Positions 5,794 to 57,169 of a stretch of DNA of 64,000 bases are shown here, piece after piece. How positions within the stretch are numbered: the first letter of the stretch is position 1; every line of letters starts with the position of its first letter. The DNA lies in assembly GCF_004103825.1 (NCBI RefSeq), contig NZ_RYFI01000006.1, positions 134,743-198,742 of the forward strand, given 5' to 3'. The notes under the pieces were generated by a model, which was not told where the DNA came from, did no database searches, and was given only the letters and a program-made list of their open reading frames with translations. Origin of the DNA: Hansschlegelia zhihuaiae. Lineage in GTDB: Bacteria; Pseudomonadota; Alphaproteobacteria; Rhizobiales; Methylopilaceae. Both the position numbers and the translations under genes were made by a program.

Positions 5794-6519
5794 TCACCCG
5801 CTGATTCGGCCGAAATCGCGGCGGGCTCGCGCCAGCATCTCCATCAGGGCGAAAAGCACGACCGCGTTGAGGACGTGCCACACCAGATGCGTGCCCGTGG
5901 GGAGCCCCGAGCAGACCCAGCGGTCCATGGTCCGGAAGACGAGCGAGACGGCGAACAATCCGGCGATGGCGAGCAGCGCGCGCCCCGTCCGGGAGGCCGC
6001 GCCCTCGCGGACGAGCAGCGCCAGCCCGACGCCCACCAGCCCGAACAGCCCGCCGAGATATCCGGAGAGGCCGCGCCAAGGCTCGCCGGCGGGCGCCAGA
6101 TCGGCGAGAAGCCGCGGCGCGAAAGCGGCCGCCGCCATGAAGGCGAGCGTGGCGAGCGCCGCCGCAAGCGCGCCGAGGCCGAACAGCCGGCGCATCGCGA
6201 AGAAGAAATAGGCGGCGATGAAGGCCTGGATGGGCGCGACGTCGGCGATCATCGCGGCGCGGGTCGCGAGCGTGTGGAACAGGAAGCTGCCAATTCCGAT
6301 CGTGATCGCGAGGACGCCGAGCAGCGCGACCGAGCGGTCGCCTCCGTGACGGCGGAGCGCGACTGCGCCCGCGATCAGAAAGCCCGCATTGCTGATCGCG
6401 TTGAGCGGCTCGGCCCAGAGGGCCGGATCGGTCCCACGCTCGCAATAGACGCCAAGGACCTGCGCCGAGAAGCTCACGAGCGGCGCGTCAGGCGGAGGCG
6501 TGGCGGAGCGGGCCGACAT
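5794..6519 (-). CDS. Ceramidase-family (CREST) membrane hydrolase
   Basis: A 241-residue multi-pass membrane protein with the metal-site pattern of the alkaline ceramidase/CREST superfamily: WAEPLNAISN near residue 36, GSFLFHT with Ser78 and His82, Asp93, and HLVWHVLNA with His211 and His215. Known relatives hydrolyse the amide bond of ceramides; bacterial members are mostly uncharacterised, so the substrate here could be a sphingolipid or another membrane amide lipid. Its start codon lies inside the 3' end of the upstream EAL gene (32-base overlap), so the two are probably translationally coupled. The family call is strong, the substrate is inferred. Confidence 0.82.
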   Translation of the reverse strand: MSARSATPPPDAPLVSFSAQVLGVYCERGTDPALWAEPLNAISNAGFLIAGAVALRRHGGDRSVALLGVLAITIGIGSFLFHTLATRAAMIADVAPIQAFIAAYFFFAMRRLFGLGALAAALATLAFMAAAAFAPRLLADLAPAGEPWRGLSGYLGGLFGLVGVGLALLVREGAASRTGRALLAIAGLFAVSLVFRTMDRWVCSGLPTGTHLVWHVLNAVVLFALMEMLARARRDFGRISG

Positions 6520-8128
6520 AGCGCCCGCCCGCCCTCTGGTCCCGCCCCTCGCCTTTGCGGGCCGGGACCATCGCCTCGACCAGGGCGCGGAACGACGACG
6601 CCGGCAAGGGCGGCGCGAACACGTAGCCCTGCGCCATCCGGACGCCCTTGCCCCTGAGATATTCGACCTGCTCGATTGTCTCGACGCCCTCGGCGATCAG
6701 GTCGAGGTTCATGTCCTCGGCGAGCTTGACCAGGCTGTCGACGATCGCGACCGAGTAGCGGTCGGTGCCGATCGCGTCGACGAACATCTTGTCCATCTTC
6801 ATGACGTCCACGCCGAGCTTGAGCAGGTAGCTCAGGCCGCCATGGCCGGTGCCGACGTCGTCGAGAGCGACCCGCGCCCCGAGCGCCTGAAGCTTCGCGA
6901 TGACGAGTCGGGCCCCCGGAATGTTGGGCAGCGGCTGACGCTCGGTCACCTCGAACATCAATTGCGTCATCCGGATCGACGAAGCCGCGAAAATGCGTTC
7001 GACATCCTCCACGATCGACACGTCGTCGAAATGACCGGCGAACAGGTTGAAGCCGAGCTTCAGGTTCGGGCGCTCGGCGTAGAGCGGGCCGAGGTCGTCG
7101 CGCGCAGCTTCCATCAGGGCGATGGTCATCGGGAAGATCTGTCCGCTCGCCTCCGCGAGCGTGATGAACCGTCCCGGCGGCAGGACGCTGCCGTCGGGCT
7201 TCGTCCAGCGAACGAGGACCTCGCAGCCCGCGAGCCGCCCGGACATGATGTCGATCACGGGCTGGTAATAGGGCGTGAACTGGCCGTTCCTGATCGCGTC
7301 GGCGATCTCGCGCACCGGGCCGCCGGACCGCCGACTCACCAGCACGGCGATCGACAGGGCGATCAGCGCCAGCGCGAGTCCGCTGACGTTGGCGTAGAGG
7401 AACAGGCTGGCGTTCGCGGCCGCAAGCGCCGAGCCGGGCGTCGAGATCTCGACCCGGATCGGATAGCGCTGCGAGGCGGCGGCCGCCTCGACGGTCGGCA
7501 GCGCGGAGGGGGCGTCGTCCTCGAGCGACGGGTCGACCAGCTTCCGCGCGATCACCGCGCCGTCGATCGTGACGGCGCGAGCCGCGAAGCCTGCGGTCAG
7601 GCGGCTTTTGAGAAAGAAGGGAAACAGGCTCTCGCCGGGCATCAGGACGCGCAGCCCGACGCCGTCCTGGTATCGCCATTGCAGGCGGATCAATTGGAGC
7701 GAGGTCGATTCGCCGACCCCGACCAGCGACATCTGGACGTCGGGGCTGAGCGTGCCGTGCTCGGGCGAGATCCTGCGCACGACGCGCGGATCGCCGAAGG
7801 CCGCGCACTGCCCCGCCCCCGCGGCGTCCACCACGGCGATCTCCGACACGAACTGCGCCCTCTGGCCCGCGACCCTCATCGCGTCCAGGTCGTTGGCCGA
7901 GCACTCCCTGACGTCGTTCAGGCCGAGCGAGATCAAGGAGGTGGCGGCGGCGTCGAGCCTCGCTTCGGCGAGCGCAAGCGTCTCGGCCGCGAGGCCGTCG
8001 ACCTCCTCCTGGGCCGTCGTGACGATGTTGAGCGCGAGCAGCGCGTTCAGGCCGACGATCGGACCCGCCACGATGACGACCCCAACGAGCAGGGCTCGCC
8101 TCCAGGAATGTCCGCCGTACCGCGTCAA
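6488..8128 (-). CDS. CSS-motif membrane sensor with EAL cyclic-di-GMP phosphodiesterase domain
   Basis: The 546-residue protein has a membrane segment at about 11-37, a periplasmic domain of about 200 residues with two cysteines (Cys76 in RECSAND and Cys108 in GQCAAF) typical of CSS redox sensors, a second membrane segment around 240-262, then an EAL domain. The catalytic motifs are kept: EVLVRW (EVL in place of EAL), GFNLF, FEVTER, LDDVGTG, KMDKMF, AEGVET and QGYVF, so it is probably an active cyclic-di-GMP phosphodiesterase. In characterised CSS-EAL proteins the disulfide state of the periplasmic cysteines controls activity. It overlaps the downstream ceramidase-like gene. Confidence 0.9.
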   Translation of the reverse strand: MTRYGGHSWRRALLVGVVIVAGPIVGLNALLALNIVTTAQEEVDGLAAETLALAEARLDAAATSLISLGLNDVRECSANDLDAMRVAGQRAQFVSEIAVVDAAGAGQCAAFGDPRVVRRISPEHGTLSPDVQMSLVGVGESTSLQLIRLQWRYQDGVGLRVLMPGESLFPFFLKSRLTAGFAARAVTIDGAVIARKLVDPSLEDDAPSALPTVEAAAASQRYPIRVEISTPGSALAAANASLFLYANVSGLALALIALSIAVLVSRRSGGPVREIADAIRNGQFTPYYQPVIDIMSGRLAGCEVLVRWTKPDGSVLPPGRFITLAEASGQIFPMTIALMEAARDDLGPLYAERPNLKLGFNLFAGHFDDVSIVEDVERIFAASSIRMTQLMFEVTERQPLPNIPGARLVIAKLQALGARVALDDVGTGHGGLSYLLKLGVDVMKMDKMFVDAIGTDRYSVAIVDSLVKLAEDMNLDLIAEGVETIEQVEYLRGKGVRMAQGYVFAPPLPASSFRALVEAMVPARKGEGRDQRAGGRYVGPLRHASA

Positions 8129-50699: not shown

Positions 50700-51665
50700 A
50701 TGCGCCAGGTCGTTGAACGCCTCCGCGACGCGCCCGTCGCAGACGCCCCCTCGCCCCTCAAGGTCGCGGTCCTGCTGCCCTGCTTCAATGAAGAGGCGGC
50801 GATCGCGGAAGTGGTGCGGGGCTTCCGCGCGGCGCTGCCGGCGGCCGACATCTATGTCTACGACAACAACTCCACGGACGAGACCGTCGAGCGCGCGCGA
50901 GAAGCGGGCGCGATCGTCCGGACCGAGCGGCGCCAGGGAAAGGGCGCGGTGGTGCGCCGGATGCTCGCCGACGTCGAGGCCGACGTCTATCTGATGGCCG
51001 ACGGCGACCTCACCTACGATCCGCTCGCGGCCCCCCTGCTAATCGACCGCCTTGTCTCCCGGCAGCTCGACATGGTGGTGGCGACGCGCGAGGGCGACGG
51101 CATGCTGGCCCGCAAGGGCCACGCCGCCGGCAACCGGATGTTCAACCGGATCATTGCGCGGCTGTTCGGGGCGGGCTTCACCGACATACTGTCGGGCTAC
51201 CGCGCCTGCTCGCGCCGTTTCGCCAAGTCCTTCCCGACGGCCTCAGATGGCTTCGAGATCGAGACGGAGCTGTCGATCCATGCGCTCGACCTGCGCCTCG
51301 CGGTCGATGAGTTGCCGGTTCGCTACGGCCGGCGGCCCGACAATTCGGCTTCGAAGCTGTCCACGGTCCGCGACGGCCTCCGCATCCTCTGGACCATCGC
51401 GATGATGTACCGGGCCGTGAAACCGTTCCGCTTCTTCGGCGCGATCGGCCTCGGTCTCGCCGCCCTGTCGGTCGCGCTTGGCGCGCCGGTCGTCGTCGAG
51501 TTCGTGGAGACCGGGCTCGTGCCGCGGCTGCCGACCGCCGTGCTCGCCGCGAGCGTCATGCAGCTCGCGGTGCTGAGCGTCGTCTGCGGCGTGATCGTCG
51601 AGGCCGTGGCCGAAGCCCGGCGCGAGGCCAAGCGGCTGCGCTATCTCGAGCTCAGGCGCGCCTGA
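50700..51665 (+). CDS. Family 2 glycosyltransferase with C-terminal membrane helices
   Basis: The 321-residue protein starts with a GT2 nucleotide-sugar domain: VAVLLPCFNEEAAIAEVV, YVYDNNSTDETVERAREAG, the metal-binding MADGDLTYDP, and the acceptor motif TDILSGYRACSRRFAKSFP. Two hydrophobic helices end it (about 240-262 and 275-297). This resembles polyprenyl-phosphate sugar transferases of the DPM1/GtrB type, so a lipid-linked sugar product is likely; donor and acceptor are unknown. Its last 14 bases overlap the last 14 of cbiD on the other strand. Confidence 0.88.
   Translation: MRQVVERLRDAPVADAPSPLKVAVLLPCFNEEAAIAEVVRGFRAALPAADIYVYDNNSTDETVERAREAGAIVRTERRQGKGAVVRRMLADVEADVYLMADGDLTYDPLAAPLLIDRLVSRQLDMVVATREGDGMLARKGHAAGNRMFNRIIARLFGAGFTDILSGYRACSRRFAKSFPTASDGFEIETELSIHALDLRLAVDELPVRYGRRPDNSASKLSTVRDGLRILWTIAMMYRAVKPFRFFGAIGLGLAALSVALGAPVVVEFVETGLVPRLPTAVLAASVMQLAVLSVVCGVIVEAVAEARREAKRLRYLELRRA
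51652..51665. repeat. Perfect 14-bp palindrome formed by two overlapping stop ends
   Basis: TCAGGCGCGCCTGA is self-complementary. It contains the rightward TGA of the glycosyltransferase gene and the leftward TGA of cbiD, so both proteins end in the same RRA-stop codons read from opposite strands. Confidence 0.85.
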
Positions 51666-52770
51666 ACGCGTCGTCGGCCGCGCGTCCCACGACCGCTCCT
51701 TCCCGATCGACCGCCAGCACCTCGATCGAGACCTCCGAACCGTGCAGCGCCTCGATCGCGGTCGCGCGCGCCTGCGCCGCGACAGCGTCCGCGAGGCCGA
51801 TCTCATGTCCGAGCCTGAGCGCCGCGAGCCCGGTCGGGGCCGCTGCGATGCGCGCCACAAGCTCCTCGCTTGCGCCGCGCTCCGCCGCGAGCGCGGAAAG
51901 AAAGCCGGCGTCGACCTGGCTGCGCCCCGAATGCAGGTCGAGACGGCCCGCCGCAAGCTTCGAGATCTTGGCGAAGCCGCCCGCGATGGTCAGCCGAGGC
52001 AGCGGATGCGCCCGCAGATACTTGAGCAACCCGCCCACGAAATCGCCCATGTCGATCAGCGCCGTCTCGGGCAGGCCGTAGAGGCGCTGCAGCGCGGCCT
52101 CCGAGGTCGCGCCGACCGCGGCGCCGACATGCGGGTAGCCGGCGGCCCGCGCGACGTCGACGCCGCGATGGATCGAGTGGATCCAGGCCGAGCAGCTATA
52201 TGGCACCACGACCCCGGTCGTGCCGAGCACGGAGAGGCCGCCGACGATCCCGAGGCGCGGATTCCAGGTCTTCTGGGCGAGCGCCGCGCCGTCGCGGATC
52301 GAGACCTCGATCTCGACGTCGCCGGCTGCGCCCTCCTCTGCCGCGACCTCGGCGATCGCGGCGCGCATCATCTCGCGCGGCTTCGGGTTGATGGCGGGCT
52401 CGCCCGGCGCGAGCGGCAGCCCGGGAAGCGTCACGGTTCCAACGCCCTCGCCGGCCCGGAACGAGACCCCCGAACCGGGAGCGGCGAGCCGCACGCAGGA
52501 CATCACCAGCGCGCCATGCGTGACGTCCGGGTCGTCGCCGGCGTCCTTGACGATCCCGGCGCGCGCGAAGCCTTCGCCCCGCTCCTCGAGCGCAAGCGCG
52601 AAGGACGGGCGCTCGCCCTTCGGCAGCACGATCTCGACCGGGTCCGGGAAAGCGCCGGTGAGCAGCGCCCGGTAGGCGGCCTTGGCGGCCGCGGTCGCGC
52701 AGGCGCCGGTGGTCCAGCCGCGCCTCAGCGGCCGGCCGGGCTCGGGCGGCGCGTCGGGTCCCTCGTCCAT
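51652..52770 (-). CDS. cbiD: Cobalt-precorrin-5B C1-methyltransferase (CbiD)
   Basis: Methylates C-1 of the corrin ring with S-adenosylmethionine. CbiD is the anaerobic-route enzyme; many aerobic cobalamin makers use CobF for this step. The 372-residue product has the signature RRGWTTGACATAAAKAAYRALL at its start and VTLPGLPLAPGEPAINPKPREMM. It also has GTTGVVVPYSCSAWIHSIHRGVDVARAAG and FAKISKLAAGRLDLHSGRSQVD. It is the last gene of the leftward cobalamin unit, 9 bases downstream of the cbiG-cobJ gene. Confidence 0.95.
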   Translation of the reverse strand: MDEGPDAPPEPGRPLRRGWTTGACATAAAKAAYRALLTGAFPDPVEIVLPKGERPSFALALEERGEGFARAGIVKDAGDDPDVTHGALVMSCVRLAAPGSGVSFRAGEGVGTVTLPGLPLAPGEPAINPKPREMMRAAIAEVAAEEGAAGDVEIEVSIRDGAALAQKTWNPRLGIVGGLSVLGTTGVVVPYSCSAWIHSIHRGVDVARAAGYPHVGAAVGATSEAALQRLYGLPETALIDMGDFVGGLLKYLRAHPLPRLTIAGGFAKISKLAAGRLDLHSGRSQVDAGFLSALAAERGASEELVARIAAAPTGLAALRLGHEIGLADAVAAQARATAIEALHGSEVSIEVLAVDREGAVVGRAADDAFRRA

Positions 52771-52779
52771 CGGGCGAAA

Positions 52780-54486
52780 CTAGCCGATGTCCTCGGTCAG
52801 CGCTTCGGTTTCGAGCTCGTAGACGCGCGGCGTGTACATCCATTGCCGGCCGTCCGCGCGCGCGAAAACGCGGCTGCGCGACGAGCCGACGATGATGAGA
52901 GTGCGCATGTCCACCACCGCGGGGTCGATCTCGCCGAGCGTGGTCAAGGTCACGGATTCGCCCTTGCGGCCAACATTGCGGGCGAGCGCGACCGGGGTCG
53001 CGTCCGAGCGGTGGCGACGGATCACCTCCAGGGCGTCGACGAGCTGCCGGCGCCGGCGCAGCGACGCCGGGTTGTAGAGCGCGAGCGCGAAATCCGCGCC
53101 AGCGGCCGCTTCGAGCCGCGCCGCGATGACCGCCCACGGCTTCAGCTGGTCGGAGAGCGAGATGGTCGCGAAGTCGTGCCCAAGCGGCGCCCCGAGCCGG
53201 GCGGCGGCGGCCTGCATGGCGGAGACGCCCGGCGTCACCTCGATCGTGACGCTCGGCCAGCGGACGGGCTCGGCGGCTACGGCCTCCATTACGGCCGCCG
53301 CCATGCCGAATACGCCGCTGTCGCCCGACGAGACGACCGCCACTTCGCGGCCTTGTCCCGCGAGCGCGAGCGCGGCGCGGGCCCGCTCGATCTCGACGCG
53401 ATTGTCGGAGCCGTGCCGGCGCTGGCCGGGGCGCTCCGGCACCATGGCGAGATAGCCCTCATAGCCGACGAGGTCGTCCGCGCGGTCGAGCGCGGCCGCG
53501 GCCTCCGGCGTGAGCCAGCCCTTGGCGCCCGGGCCAAGGCCGACGACCGTCACTCGGCCGGGCGCGCGGCCGAGCTCCAGCGGATCCTGCGGCTCGGCGT
53601 AGCGGTGGAGCCGCAGGCCGGGCTCGCCATGGACCAACTCCCCGCCCTCGACGCGATGCTCGACGAGCCGGAGCGGGACGCCCTTCGCCGCGAGGCCGCC
53701 CGTGAACAGGTGGTGGATAGGCGCCCCCTCGGGCGCCGTCGAAAAGGCGATCGCGGACTGCGACAGGCCAAGCGTGTCGACCGCCTGCGTCATGCGCTCC
53801 AGCATCGCGGCGTCGGGCCGATCGAACTCGGCGACCAGGATCTTGGGATGGTAGAGAAGCCCGCCCTCCGGCGGCGCGCCGGCTTCCGCCGAGATTCTCA
53901 GAACCACCTCGCCATCGGGGGCGAGCGGGAGGTTCGAGTTTTCGAGCCATGCGGCGGACCCTTCCAGCCGCGCCTCCGCCCCGGACAGGAGCGCGGCGGT
54001 CACGGTCTTGGCGTCGTCGGGGTTGTCGAGCGCGTAGCCGGGCGGCGGCGCCTCCAGGATGACGCCGAACCGGCGCGCGCCGGCGCCGGTGAGCGCCGGC
54101 GTCCCGCCAAGCGCCGCAGCGAGCCGGCGGGCAAGCGGATCGGCTCCCGTCAGGCCTCCGAGCAGCGGCACGACAGTCGCGCCGTCGTCGCTCACCGCAA
54201 GCACCGGCGGCTCGGCGCGCTTGTCCTTGAGAAGCGGCGCGAGCAGGCGGATCAGGATGCCCGAAGCGCAGATGCCGATGATGGGACGCCCGGCGCGGAA
54301 CAGGTCGCGGGTCTGCGCAGCGGCGTCCTCGAAAGCGCTGTCGAGACCGTCGGCGCGGCCCGCTAGGCCATAGGAGTCCCCGCCGATCGCGTCGACGATT
54401 CGGCGCGCGAGCTCCACGCCCGCGAGGTTGAAGGCGAGCACGGCGGGCCGGGCCGCGCACGGCCTGTCGGCGGCAGGGCGGCTCAT
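52780..54486 (-). CDS. cobJ: Fused CbiG-like / precorrin-3B C17-methyltransferase (CobJ)
   Basis: A two-part protein of 568 residues. Residues about 15-135 form a CbiG N-terminal domain (GICASGILIRLLAPLLKDKR and VSDDGATVVPLLGGLTGADPLARRLAAALGGTP). A middle stretch to about 300 includes a degenerate CbiG_C/CobE-like segment (LVAEFDRPDAAMLERMTQAVDTLGLSQSAIAFSTAPEG). Residues 311-556 are CobJ, with RVTVVGLGPGAKGWLTPEAAAAL, VSSGDSGVFGMAAAVMEAV and TPGVSAMQAAAARLGAPLGHDFATISLSD. CobJ methylates C-17 and drives ring contraction; CbiG opens the lactone in the anaerobic route. The start overlaps the cobI stop by four bases. Confidence 0.92.
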   Translation of the reverse strand: MSRPAADRPCAARPAVLAFNLAGVELARRIVDAIGGDSYGLAGRADGLDSAFEDAAAQTRDLFRAGRPIIGICASGILIRLLAPLLKDKRAEPPVLAVSDDGATVVPLLGGLTGADPLARRLAAALGGTPALTGAGARRFGVILEAPPPGYALDNPDDAKTVTAALLSGAEARLEGSAAWLENSNLPLAPDGEVVLRISAEAGAPPEGGLLYHPKILVAEFDRPDAAMLERMTQAVDTLGLSQSAIAFSTAPEGAPIHHLFTGGLAAKGVPLRLVEHRVEGGELVHGEPGLRLHRYAEPQDPLELGRAPGRVTVVGLGPGAKGWLTPEAAAALDRADDLVGYEGYLAMVPERPGQRRHGSDNRVEIERARAALALAGQGREVAVVSSGDSGVFGMAAAVMEAVAAEPVRWPSVTIEVTPGVSAMQAAAARLGAPLGHDFATISLSDQLKPWAVIAARLEAAAGADFALALYNPASLRRRRQLVDALEVIRRHRSDATPVALARNVGRKGESVTLTTLGEIDPAVVDMRTLIIVGSSRSRVFARADGRQWMYTPRVYELETEALTEDIG

Positions 54487-55208
54487 GGGACCTCCCGGCT
54501 CGGAACCACGATGATCGAGAAATACGGCGCCGACTCCGGCGCGACTTCGGCGGCCCGCATCACGCGCTCTCCCGGCTGGCTCGCCCGCTCGACATAGAAG
54601 GCGCGGTCGAGCGCGCCCGCGGTCTCGAGCGCGGCCCGGACCTTCCCGAAGGTCCGGCCGAGCTTCATCACGACCGCGGCGTCGGCGGCGGCGATCCGTA
54701 GGACCAGCTCGTCCTCCGGCAAGGTGCCGGGGATGACCGTGACCGTGTCCTTGCGCAGGCAAAGCGGACGTCCGAGCGCCGCGGGGCCCGCCATGATCGA
54801 CGACACGCCGGGCGCGACGGTCGTGTCGTAGCGATCCTTCAGCCGCGCGTGCCAGTAGATGAACGAGCCGTAGAAGAACGGGTCGCCCTCGCACAGCACG
54901 CAGACGTTCTGGCCGCGGTCGAGCCGTGCAGCGATCTGGGCCGCGGTCTCGTCGTAGAAGGCGCGCATCACGGACGGGTAGGACGGCAGGTCCGCCTCCG
55001 GGCTAGCCGTCACCGGATAGACCAGCGGCAAGAGCTCCTGGCCGTCGCGCAGATGCGGCCGCGCGGCCGACAGCGCGACGCCGGAGCCCGCCTTGGCGGC
55101 CGGGTAGGCGACGACGTCGGCCTCCCCAATCAGCCGCACGGCCTTCAGCGTGAGAAGCTCGGGGTCGCCCGGCCCGACGCCGACGCCGGAGAAGCGGCCA
55201 GCGGTCAT
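54483..55208 (-). CDS. cobI: Precorrin-2 C20-methyltransferase
   Basis: Methylates precorrin-2 at C-20 to precorrin-3A. The 241-residue product has the methyltransferase starts FSGVGVGPGDPELLTLKAVRLIGEADVVAYP and VCVLCEGDPFFYGSFIYWHARL. TTVAPGVSSIMAGPAALGRPLC and VVMKLGRTFGKVRAAL follow. Its ATG overlaps the cobH stop codon by four bases, and its own stop overlaps the cobJ start the same way, so cobH-cobI-cobJ are translationally coupled. Confidence 0.95.
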   Translation of the reverse strand: MTAGRFSGVGVGPGDPELLTLKAVRLIGEADVVAYPAAKAGSGVALSAARPHLRDGQELLPLVYPVTASPEADLPSYPSVMRAFYDETAAQIAARLDRGQNVCVLCEGDPFFYGSFIYWHARLKDRYDTTVAPGVSSIMAGPAALGRPLCLRKDTVTVIPGTLPEDELVLRIAAADAAVVMKLGRTFGKVRAALETAGALDRAFYVERASQPGERVMRAAEVAPESAPYFSIIVVPSREVP

Positions 55209-55828
55209 TCCCGCGCGTCCGCGACGGCGTTGAGGGCCGCGACCGCCATGGCGCTGCCGCCCCGGCGGCCGAGCAGCGTCAGGAACGGCGTCCCGCGCGG
55301 ATTGCGGGAAAGCTCCTCCTTGGACTCGGCCGCGCCGATGAAGCCGACCGGAAGCCCAAGGATCGCGGCCGGCCTCGGCCAGCCGTCGTCGAGCCGGTCG
55401 AGCAGATGGAACAGCGTGGTGGGCGCATTGCCTATCGCGACCACCGCGCCATCGAGGCGGTCGCGCCAGAGCTCGACGGCAGCGGCCGAGCGCGTCGTTG
55501 AAAGGTTTCGGGCGAGGTCCGCGACCTCCGGCTGGTCGAGGAAGCACAGCACCTCGTTGGCGGCAGGCAGCCGCGACCGGGTGACGCCCGACGCGACCAT
55601 CTTGGCGTCGCAGATGATCGGGGCGCCGTCCTGCAGGGCGGCGCGCGCGGCGGCGACGACGTCAGCCGAATAGCGTGTCTCGGCGGGAAGGTCGGTCATG
55701 CCGCAGGCGTGGATCATGCGGACCATGACGCCGGCCACGTCCTCTGGCAGGGCCGACAGGTCCGCCTCCGCGCGGATCGTCGCGAAGGAGCGACGATAGA
55801 TCTCCGCGCCGTCCTTGATGTAGCGCAT
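55205..55828 (-). CDS. cobH: Precorrin-8X methylmutase
   Basis: Moves a methyl group from C-11 to C-12, giving hydrogenobyrinate. The 207-residue protein has IYRRSFATIRAEADLSALPEDVAGVMVRMIHACGMTDLP, with the catalytic His of MIHACGM. ICDAKMVASGVTRSRLP and AIGNAPTTLFHLL follow, then ILGLPVGFIGAAESKEEL. It starts 99 bases after cobG and overlaps cobI by four bases. Confidence 0.96.
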   Translation of the reverse strand: MRYIKDGAEIYRRSFATIRAEADLSALPEDVAGVMVRMIHACGMTDLPAETRYSADVVAAARAALQDGAPIICDAKMVASGVTRSRLPAANEVLCFLDQPEVADLARNLSTTRSAAAVELWRDRLDGAVVAIGNAPTTLFHLLDRLDDGWPRPAAILGLPVGFIGAAESKEELSRNPRGTPFLTLLGRRGGSAMAVAALNAVADARE

Positions 55829-55927
55829 GCCTGCCTTTCAAAGCCCGAGAAGGCCACCCGTCCGTCGTGCGTCAGCCTTGTGACGGCGGCGGGGGCGCAA
55901 GGCAAGGCGTAGTTTCCTTCCATGCGG

Positions 55928-57169
55928 TCAACGGGTTGTCGCAAGCAGCGCGAGCGCCTCGGCCGCGCCTGGCGCTTCGAGCCGGCCGAGTTCTTGGCCC
56001 GGCCTCCGGGGGGCCGCGTCGCGATGCGCCGACCAGCCCGCGCGTTCGCTCGATCCGAGCAGGAGAAGGTCGGCCGGAACCGCGCCGCCGCAACCCTTCG
56101 GACAGCCGGAGAGATGCAGGCTCGCCCTGCGCTCCGGCAACCGGGCGGGGTCGGAAGCCGCGAGCGCCAGAATCTCGCGGCCGAGCGCCTTGGCGGGCTC
56201 GTGCGCCCGCTCGCACGCCGGCGCGCCGGCGCAGGCGACGACGGCGAGCCGCTCCGCGACGGCGAGCGGGGGGAAGCCGACAGCGACGGATGGCGCCAGC
56301 AGCGCGGCGGCGCGGCTCTCGGCGAGGCCGGGAATCACGACGGCGGACCATGGCGTAAGGACCAGCCGACCTTCGCCGTCGCGCTCGGCTATGTTGGCCA
56401 GGAAGTCCAGCATCGCCTGGTCGAGCCGGCCAACCGGAACCGGGAGACTGAGCGCCACACCGCCGGCGCGCATCGCCACAAGGCCCAAGCGAGGCTCGAC
56501 CGCATTGGCCCGCGGTGGGGGAGTGGCGAGGACGGCGCCGCCGCTCGACGTCAGGGCTTTCCGGATCATGGGCTCAGACAGGCCGCCGGCCCGCATGTCG
56601 CCGCCCTCGGCTGCGGCGGCCGCGGCGATCGATAGCAGCGCATCGACGGCGCCGTCCTCCGACCCGAAGGCGGCCGAGACTTGGCCGGCGGTGACGACCA
56701 GGCCGTCACGCGCCGCGACGACCGCCACGTCGGACGGCGTCGCGCCAATCCCGATGGGCCCGCCGCCATCCAGCACGAACGAGAATTTCGGCGAGAGGCT
56801 CTCGATCCAAGGCGCGGAAGAGAGCGCCTGGTCCAGCGCGGCGCCGAGACTTCTGAGATCGCGCCTCTCGCCCGGATCGATCCCCGAGAACGGATCGAGC
56901 AGGATGTTCCTTCGGCGCTCCGCCCGGCCAAATCGGAAGCCGGCCGCCTCCAGGCGCGAGGCGAGTTCCGGCCCGGCGTCGGGCGCGAGCCCGCGGATCT
57001 GGAGATTCGCCCGGTTGGTGAGGTCGACGACGCCGGAGCCGAGGCGTTCGGCCGCCTCGCCCACAGCCCGCGCCTGCGCCCCGGTCAGCGCGCCGCCGAG
57101 CGTGCGAATCCGCGCAAGGCCGCCATCGGCCATCGCGGCGAGGTGCAGCACGCCCGGACAATCCGCCAT
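55928..57169 (-). CDS. cobG: Precorrin-3B synthase (CobG)
   Basis: Oxygen-dependent enzyme of the aerobic cobalamin route that hydroxylates precorrin-3A and sets up ring contraction. The 413-residue protein has the sulfite/nitrite-reductase half-domains (ADGGLARIRTLGGALTGAQARAV, VDLTNRANLQIRGL) and the four cysteines of the siroheme-type 4Fe-4S site, CAGAPAC plus SGCPKGCGG. The start MADCPGVLHLAAMADGG was chosen as the family N-terminus. It heads the leftward cobG-cobH-cobI-cobJ-cbiD unit; I saw no cobalamin riboswitch in the 137 bases upstream of it. Confidence 0.93.
   Translation of the reverse strand: MADCPGVLHLAAMADGGLARIRTLGGALTGAQARAVGEAAERLGSGVVDLTNRANLQIRGLAPDAGPELASRLEAAGFRFGRAERRRNILLDPFSGIDPGERRDLRSLGAALDQALSSAPWIESLSPKFSFVLDGGGPIGIGATPSDVAVVAARDGLVVTAGQVSAAFGSEDGAVDALLSIAAAAAAEGGDMRAGGLSEPMIRKALTSSGGAVLATPPPRANAVEPRLGLVAMRAGGVALSLPVPVGRLDQAMLDFLANIAERDGEGRLVLTPWSAVVIPGLAESRAAALLAPSVAVGFPPLAVAERLAVVACAGAPACERAHEPAKALGREILALAASDPARLPERRASLHLSGCPKGCGGAVPADLLLLGSSERAGWSAHRDAAPRRPGQELGRLEAPGAAEALALLATTR

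Follow-up and report, generated by a model that had tools for sequence, protein, structure and literature searches.

The cobalamin (vitamin B12) operon of Hansschlegelia zhihuaiae lies within a 64,000-nucleotide stretch of contig NZ_RYFI01000006.1 (positions 134,743 to 198,742 of the forward strand; this whole stretch is called the window below), and it raises the question of what a CbiG domain and CbiD are doing in an operon led by cobG. In the accessible text of reviews, among them PMC7242693 and PMC8123684, the aerobic route is given with CobF and not with CbiD, and a genome reconstruction paper, as far as its text was available, splits the B12 routes by CbiD and CbiG versus CobF and CobG (PMC6593275). 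We read the locus as an oxygen-dependent CobG operon where CbiD performs the CobF step and where the CbiG attached to CobJ was inherited from an older enzyme that worked without CobG, and we put the probability of this reading at roughly 0.7. The arrangement itself is real and conserved, and its kind is nothing out of the ordinary: the pathway is an aerobic hybrid whose CobJ is fused to a decayed CbiG.

The cobG operon and its fusion gene

Five genes in the order cobG-cobH-cobI-fusion-cbiD run along the minus strand from 57169 to 51652. This order had been proposed in a first-pass annotation made from the sequence alone and is confirmed here by profile matches over cut-off in open frames with no internal stops. 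The features of the operon are as follows.

55928..57169, minus strand: cobG, oxygen-dependent precorrin-3B synthase (TIGR02435 236.9 bits, cut-off 234.8; PF03460 and PF01077; cysteines 313, 319, 356 and 360)
55205..55828, minus strand: cobH, precorrin-8X methylmutase (PF02570 231.5 bits; NF006136 337.5 bits, cut-off 276)
54483..55208, minus strand: cobI, precorrin-2 C20-methyltransferase (NF004647 304.8 bits, cut-off 271)
52780..54486, minus strand: fusion protein of 568 residues, putatively decayed CbiG part plus CobJ, in a single open frame (PF11760 and PF00590, TIGR01466)
54082..54312, minus strand: CbiG_N domain of the fusion (PF11760 83.6 bits, cut-off 25; residues 51–127 of the 560-residue reading from 54462)
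54151..54159, minus strand: GGL where the intact CbiGs examined have GGH or SGH (alignment and motif table)
53647..53847, minus strand: CbiG_C/CobE-like remnant lacking GxGC and the SVAEAAAL half (alignment; predicted fold compared with CobE 2w6l)
52816..53559, minus strand: CobJ domain, ring contraction and C17 methylation (TIGR01466 at residues 304–549; NF004648 from residue 302; PDB 3nut, E 7.9e-60)
51652..52770, minus strand: cbiD, C1-methyltransferase probably standing in for CobF (TIGR00312 402.8 bits, cut-off 200; NF000849 489.4 bits, cut-off 348)

The cobH/cobI and cobI/fusion junctions are ATGA overlaps, and 9 nt separate the stop codon of the fusion from the start of cbiD. In the profile scans cobI was read from 55232, eight codons upstream of its ATG, and the fusion from 54462, eight codons inside its ATG. 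The CobJ half of the fusion scores 293 bits with TIGR01466 (cobJ_cbiH) against a cut-off of 246.35, and CbiD is matched over its full length (profile positions 1–345 of 346). CobG passes its model by a thin margin of about 2 bits, and its four 4Fe-4S cysteines are intact as C-x5-C and C-x3-C pairs, which bears out what the first-pass annotation had said of them. A stronger TIGR02435 candidate elsewhere in the genome (G000:C1:462116-463330, L095; 407 bits) was rejected as a NirA-family protein, scoring 963.9 bits against a cut-off of 523; that this model places a NirA-family protein so far above the operon CobG, which scores 236.8 bits in the same genome search, is an annotation hazard. No Rfam family was found at gathering score in the 64-kb window.

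The order cobG-cobH-cobI-fusion is kept in all ten loci collected from the Methylopilaceae group, which come from Hansschlegelia, Methylopila, Chenggangzhangella and one strain labelled Chelatococcus. In two of the ten (H. beijingensis and H. plantiphila), as in the window, the fusion is followed by cbiD. Since the genes 3' of cbiD in these two loci are shared with three cbiD-less Methylopila loci (L057, L058 and L059), the comparison points to gain or loss of cbiD by itself at this place; the downstream neighbors in the window and in the other five family loci differ.

Probable decay of the CbiG part

The comparison set was drawn from a TIGR01466 survey of 398 Pseudomonadota genomes, 156 of which contain a CobJ/CbiH match at E 1e-30 (154 over cut-off); 80 of these 156, from 72 genera and each at least 90% complete, were chosen by hand. 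The source genome (G000; assembly 97.54% complete) is among them, as is a CobF-bearing congener (G095). A CbiG_N domain is present in 43 of the 80, in frame with an intact CbiG_C and CobJ in 17, as part of a separate CbiG in 15, and fused to CobJ with no intact CbiG_C in 11 (one of these fusions, that of G286, contains a partial CbiG_C match, weak at 27.1 bits). Among the 37 genomes lacking CbiG_N, 34 have CobG near CobJ, 33 of them placed by coordinates (24 over cut-off) and G345 by contig only; the 37 divide into 27 with CobF, nine with CbiD and one with neither. In the last of these, G084 (C71), CobJ/CbiH and CbiG_C are matched, CobF, CbiD, CbiG_N and a CobG near CobJ are all missing, and the C1 step is unaccounted for.

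The two classes of CbiG differ in their company. Intact CbiG is accompanied by CbiD and never by CobF in all 32 genomes that have it, and in none of them does TIGR02435 give a match over cut-off or any match close to CobJ. In the genomes with a decayed fusion (11/11) the start of CobG is 3.1–3.6 kb from that of CobJ. The fusion is also not peculiar to this genome; it is widespread in relatives, with cases among alpha-, beta- and gammaproteobacteria and one cyanobacterium.

In the window the CbiG_N core is kept when the fusion is aligned with intact fusions (the alignment compares the CbiG part with 16 of them, a 17th having been added later for the motif table, and its family rows are the 10 loci). 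The claim that a complete C-terminal domain is lacking holds: PF01890 gives no match in the fusion protein at E 0.001, nor anywhere in the source genome at E 0.01, and only about 70 residues of a CbiG_C remnant can be aligned, the second half being missing. The fusion likewise falls below whole-protein CbiG cut-offs, the best of the listed CbiG models (NF005441) giving 58.4 bits against 358. The histidine of the GGH or SGH motif is present in 17/17 intact fusions and in all seven separate CbiGs examined (of the 15 found). At this position leucine stands in 20/20 decayed fusions (nine outside the family and 11 within it, the window included), and among four named plasmid records there is leucine in three and threonine in one, so that overall the motif is found in 24/24 intact CbiGs examined versus 0/24 CobG-linked fusions. 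The GxGC/S/A and SVAE-type motifs are present in all 17 intact fusions and missing in the 20 decayed ones; 'TGAGA' matches returned by our script in the family were rejected as a GxGC-type motif, being a different N-terminal stretch. On these alignments the CbiG part is most plausibly a CbiG that has decayed, not a new enzyme, and the fusion has probably lost the CbiG hydrolase activity, that is, delta-lactone hydrolysis with release of acetaldehyde.

Two of the plasmid-borne fusions may be described separately. That of the cyanobacterium Kovacikia minuta (L133:3956-5380) stands in a cobG-cobH-cobI-fusion cluster and has an even shorter CbiG part, in a frame of 474 residues. In Caballeronia sp. 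M1242 (L132:707-1822 and 5929-7635) the CbiG part has GGT instead of GGL, and cbiD lies on the opposite strand near cobG.

The predicted structures agree with CbiG descent. The full-length AlphaFold model of the fusion is poor (mean pLDDT 57.4, pTM 0.31), and its PDB matches are CobJ and related methylases. When modeled alone, the CbiG part gave a modest best model (pLDDT 70.1, pTM 0.42; the five models range from 70.1 down to 43.1), which matches Sulfolobus solfataricus CbiG (3eeq) with a Foldseek E of 1.1e-13 and a TM-score of 0.33, and along its length with Z 15.2 over 185 residues at an rmsd of 16.3. Its end superimposes on CobE 2w6l with Z 8.5 and an rmsd of 2.6 over 89 residues, and residues 1–159 give weaker fold matches to other proteins (Z under 7). 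A CbiG-like fold, which the first-pass annotation had wanted checked, is thus kept in the prediction, and because the modeled part still resembles 3eeq and CobE 2w6l it is taken to be a CbiG by descent.

Whether this part is of any use to the cell bears on the strongest rival explanation, that it is a mere fossil, inherited with the fusion and tolerated. In a crude pairwise count of the window against 10 relatives, pN/pS is 0.51–0.71 for the CbiG_C remnant and 0.41–0.78 for the stretch before CobJ, so these regions look relaxed; the CbiG part is shorter still in Kovacikia, and the 34 of 45 CobG genomes that have no CbiG_N at all mean that it is dispensable. The same count gives 0.22–0.43 for the CbiG_N core, about as constrained as CobJ (0.17–0.40), with 0.30–0.49 for the linker; long stretches of the core are also invariant across the 11 aligned family sequences, and the fusion persists across three proteobacterial classes and a cyanobacterium. 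We therefore regard the fossil explanation as rather unlikely. The first half of the CbiG part looks constrained and the rest less so, and for this reason a non-catalytic role is possible. For the more specific role suggested earlier, in which the domain would shield or channel an unstable intermediate, there are just crude signs of purifying selection, on the first half.

CbiD, CobF and CobE

CobF and CbiD exclude each other almost completely in the survey. Over cut-off, CobF is found in 33 of the 80 genomes and CbiD in 47, the division into both, CobF only, CbiD only and neither being 1/32/46/1. The single genome with both is G058 (C1:2562208-2562987), in which some 2 kb separate CbiD from cobG in the fusion operon. 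Within the family of the window (18 genomes) CobF occurs in 10, CbiD in three, both in none and neither in five; these five genomes, from two other genera, may lack the pathway. All 13 genomes of the genus itself have either CobF (10) or CbiD (three) and never both. One of the 10 CobFs, in G406 (C1:4112406-4113148), is split over two frames in a genome 88% complete, where a sequencing error is likely.

The source genome gave no CobF match at E 1e-10 or 1e-20, so that the search for cobF outside the operon, raised by the first-pass annotation, came back empty. Genes of the TP_methylase family number seven in each of the three CbiD-bearing members of the genus and eight in the CobF-bearing G095, where the extra one is CobF. 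Because the genome has neither a CobF match nor a spare TP_methylase, the earlier suggestion that CbiD takes the place of CobF is supported by gene content. The three family CbiDs form one clade (support 1.0) inside the CbiDs of the same class (0.954).

A second rival explanation gives the CbiG part changed chemistry: it would deacetylate precorrin-5 so that CbiD can methylate C1, the pair replacing CobF. This would suit the reactions as described in the text available to us, where CobF performs both deacetylation and methylation (PMC8123684) and CbiD is solely a methyltransferase acting after CbiG (PMC7242693), and the fusion and cbiD are adjacent in the window. Among CobG genomes CbiD is also somewhat commoner with the fusion (5/10) than without it (8/34), a difference that is not significant (Fisher p 0.13). 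The pairing is not needed, however. The 11 genomes with a decayed fusion have CobF alone in five, CbiD alone in five and both in one, and eight CobG genomes have CbiD with no CbiG_N whatever; in the genus, 10 of 13 members have CobF, and the CobF-bearing G095 shares GGL with the three CbiD-bearing members. Since the fusion accompanies CobF as often as CbiD, the CbiG part is not the helper of CbiD, and a two-part substitute for CobF was set aside as highly improbable. Least credible of all is a cobalt-early route with CobG as a spectator, to which the presence of CbiD and a CbiG_N domain and the 2-bit margin of CobG would point, since no intact CbiG was found, the CobG cysteines are intact and cobG leads the operon in 10/10 family loci.

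The other candidate for assistance at this step is CobE. A CbiG_C/CobE match is present in 78 of the 80 genomes, and the two that lack it, G000 and G095, are both of the genus of the window. In the source genome no separate CobE was detected with PF01890 at E 0.01, nor with a profile of 22 sequences at E 1 among the best 150 of 160 candidates scored; across the family this profile gave weak partial matches of 11.6–15.5 bits in five of 18 genomes. With CobE absent from the genus, CbiD is therefore the only recognizable C1 enzyme here. The CobE-like end of the fusion, truncated as it is, might substitute for CobE; the same truncation is seen, however, in the nine decayed fusions from outside the family, and those genomes have a separate CobE in 9/9 cases.

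As for the rest of the pathway, which the first-pass annotation had proposed to look for elsewhere in the genome, cobM was found on the same contig (293.3 bits, cut-off 259.65), in one cluster (G000:C56) with a CbiE/CbiT-type cobL, cobA and cobB. CobZ as the supplier of the oxygen step was considered and rejected: TIGR02485 gave no match to cobZ at 1e-20 in the source genome among the best 18 of 28 candidates, and this model is over cut-off (candidate CobZ) in 17 of the 80 genomes.

Proposed history and known systems

The favored explanation starts from an ancestor with a complete CbiG-CobJ fusion that would have worked with CbiD and without CobG, an enzyme type seen today in other bacteria of the class. 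The arrival of CobG would have supplied the oxygen function at C20, after which ring contraction would no longer have given the delta-lactone opened by CbiG, and at that stage there would be no cobalt yet in the ring. This step draws on what the available text of several sources says: CbiG opens a delta-lactone made by CbiH, the ring in the CobG route bears an acetyl group at C1 (both PMC7242693), the CbiG reaction is described as cobalt-dependent (PMC8305020), and cobalt is inserted late in the CobG route, by CobN (PMC6593275). Because the ring would have a C1 acetyl group instead of a lactone and would receive cobalt late, the substrate of CbiG should be missing in the CobG route. The hydrolase would then not have been needed and its motifs would have been lost, leaving a non-catalytic part of CobJ that probably aids folding, association or the holding of the product; in most other surveyed CobG genomes even this remnant is gone. 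Methylation at C1 and loss of the acetyl group would be carried out by CbiD in this genome, and in most congeners by CobF. The direction of change, the non-catalytic role and the removal of the acetyl group by CbiD as well as the addition of the methyl group are all parts that we infer.

A CobJ tree was built from 17/17 intact fusions, 20 decayed fusions, 17 of the 37 plain CobJs and six of the 15 separate CbiHs. It groups the decayed fusions with the plain CobJs and sets both off from the intact fusions and the separate CbiHs. Taken with the gene content, this placement fits a course in which CbiG first decayed and was then lost once CobG had arrived.

Several points weigh against this reading. 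The split of CobG-linked CobJs from the others is read from the topology of the tree, and two sequences are out of place, the intact fusion of G018 falling among separate CbiHs and the separate CbiH of G162 among intact fusions. In the same tree the genus members with CbiD do not form a single clade, so that more than one gain or loss of CobF or CbiD is likely, and the genes flanking CobF are not common to all members of the genus; both obscure the direction of the exchange. The GGH/SGH, GxGC and SVAE motifs are conserved residues and not proven active-site ones, and the pairwise pN/pS counts were made at pS of 0.27–0.68. CobE is present in 12 of the 13 genomes that have CobG and CbiD but no CobF, so a helper role for CobE is excluded only for the genus of the window. 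Finally, the 80 genomes are a hand-made choice from 156, and CobG matches its model over cut-off in 36 of the 45 genomes that have it beside CobJ and below it in nine, 44 of the 45 having been checked by coordinates.

A bolder version of the favored explanation, which we consider possible but on balance doubtful, is that in this lineage CbiD acting alone on a cobalt-free ring, with no CobF, intact CbiG or CobE, both deacetylates and methylates C1 of precorrin-5, and that the dead CbiG has been retained without catalytic function, to hold or chaperone CobJ or its unstable product, a pseudoenzyme within a working enzyme. The points of interest are the alternation of CobF and CbiD in one genus, a CbiD with neither CobE nor an intact CbiG, and the retention of a motif-less CbiG domain. 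The operon of the window is a natural test of what CbiD and CbiG parts still do, and the genus, with CobF or CbiD beside the same operon, is a clean natural comparison for how CbiD works without CbiG. For annotation, a rule dividing genomes by CbiD and CbiG versus CobF and CobG misfiles the 13 of 45 CobG genomes in which CbiD is present and CobF missing (the CobG match is below cut-off in G063 and G046, two of the 13), and a CbiG_N match in such a genome need not mean hydrolase activity, though the available text of one paper has a table for P. putida that puts EC 3.7.1.12 under CbiG/CobJ (PMC11596459).

The fusion itself is not new, and KEGG K13541 is presumably the entry that names it. Replacement of CobF by CbiD has also been proposed in print: the accessible part of one paper suggests CbiD as a stand-in for CobF in Streptomyces and Methylobacterium extorquens CM4 and says that its role awaits investigation (PMC3621897). 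The first-pass annotation had allowed that the fusion might prove universal and already explained; it is widespread, and no published explanation of a fused, decayed CbiG part was found in the literature searched, which for the most part excluded subscription journals and was seen in part.

Set beside known systems, the window resembles the 17 surveyed intact fusions, 16 of them from its own class, in domain order and in the presence of CbiD (17/17). It differs from them in that they have a complete CbiG_C, GxGC/S/A and SVAE-type motifs, GGH or SGH, and no CobG over cut-off. Sulfolobus solfataricus CbiG (3eeq) and the CobE structures (2w6l and 3by5) share fold likeness with the model of the CbiG part, but the domain arrangement of 3eeq is not reproduced in it and the motifs are lost. 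Nine surveyed genomes from outside the family resemble the window in their decayed fusion and have kept a separate CobE, of which there is none in the genus of the window. In M. extorquens CM4 it is a plasmid-borne cbiD that is proposed, in the text available, as the CobF substitute in an incomplete aerobic set (PMC3621897); this strain also has a chromosomal cobF, and none was found in the source genome. Also similar to the window are the fusions of Azotobacter chroococcum (annotated cobJ) and Caballeronia, which have the order cobG-cobH-cobI-fusion, GGL or GGT, and no SVAE motif. In A. chroococcum cobG, the cobH- and cobI-type genes, cobJ and cobF stand side by side, so that, unlike in the window, it is cobF that lies directly downstream of the fusion.

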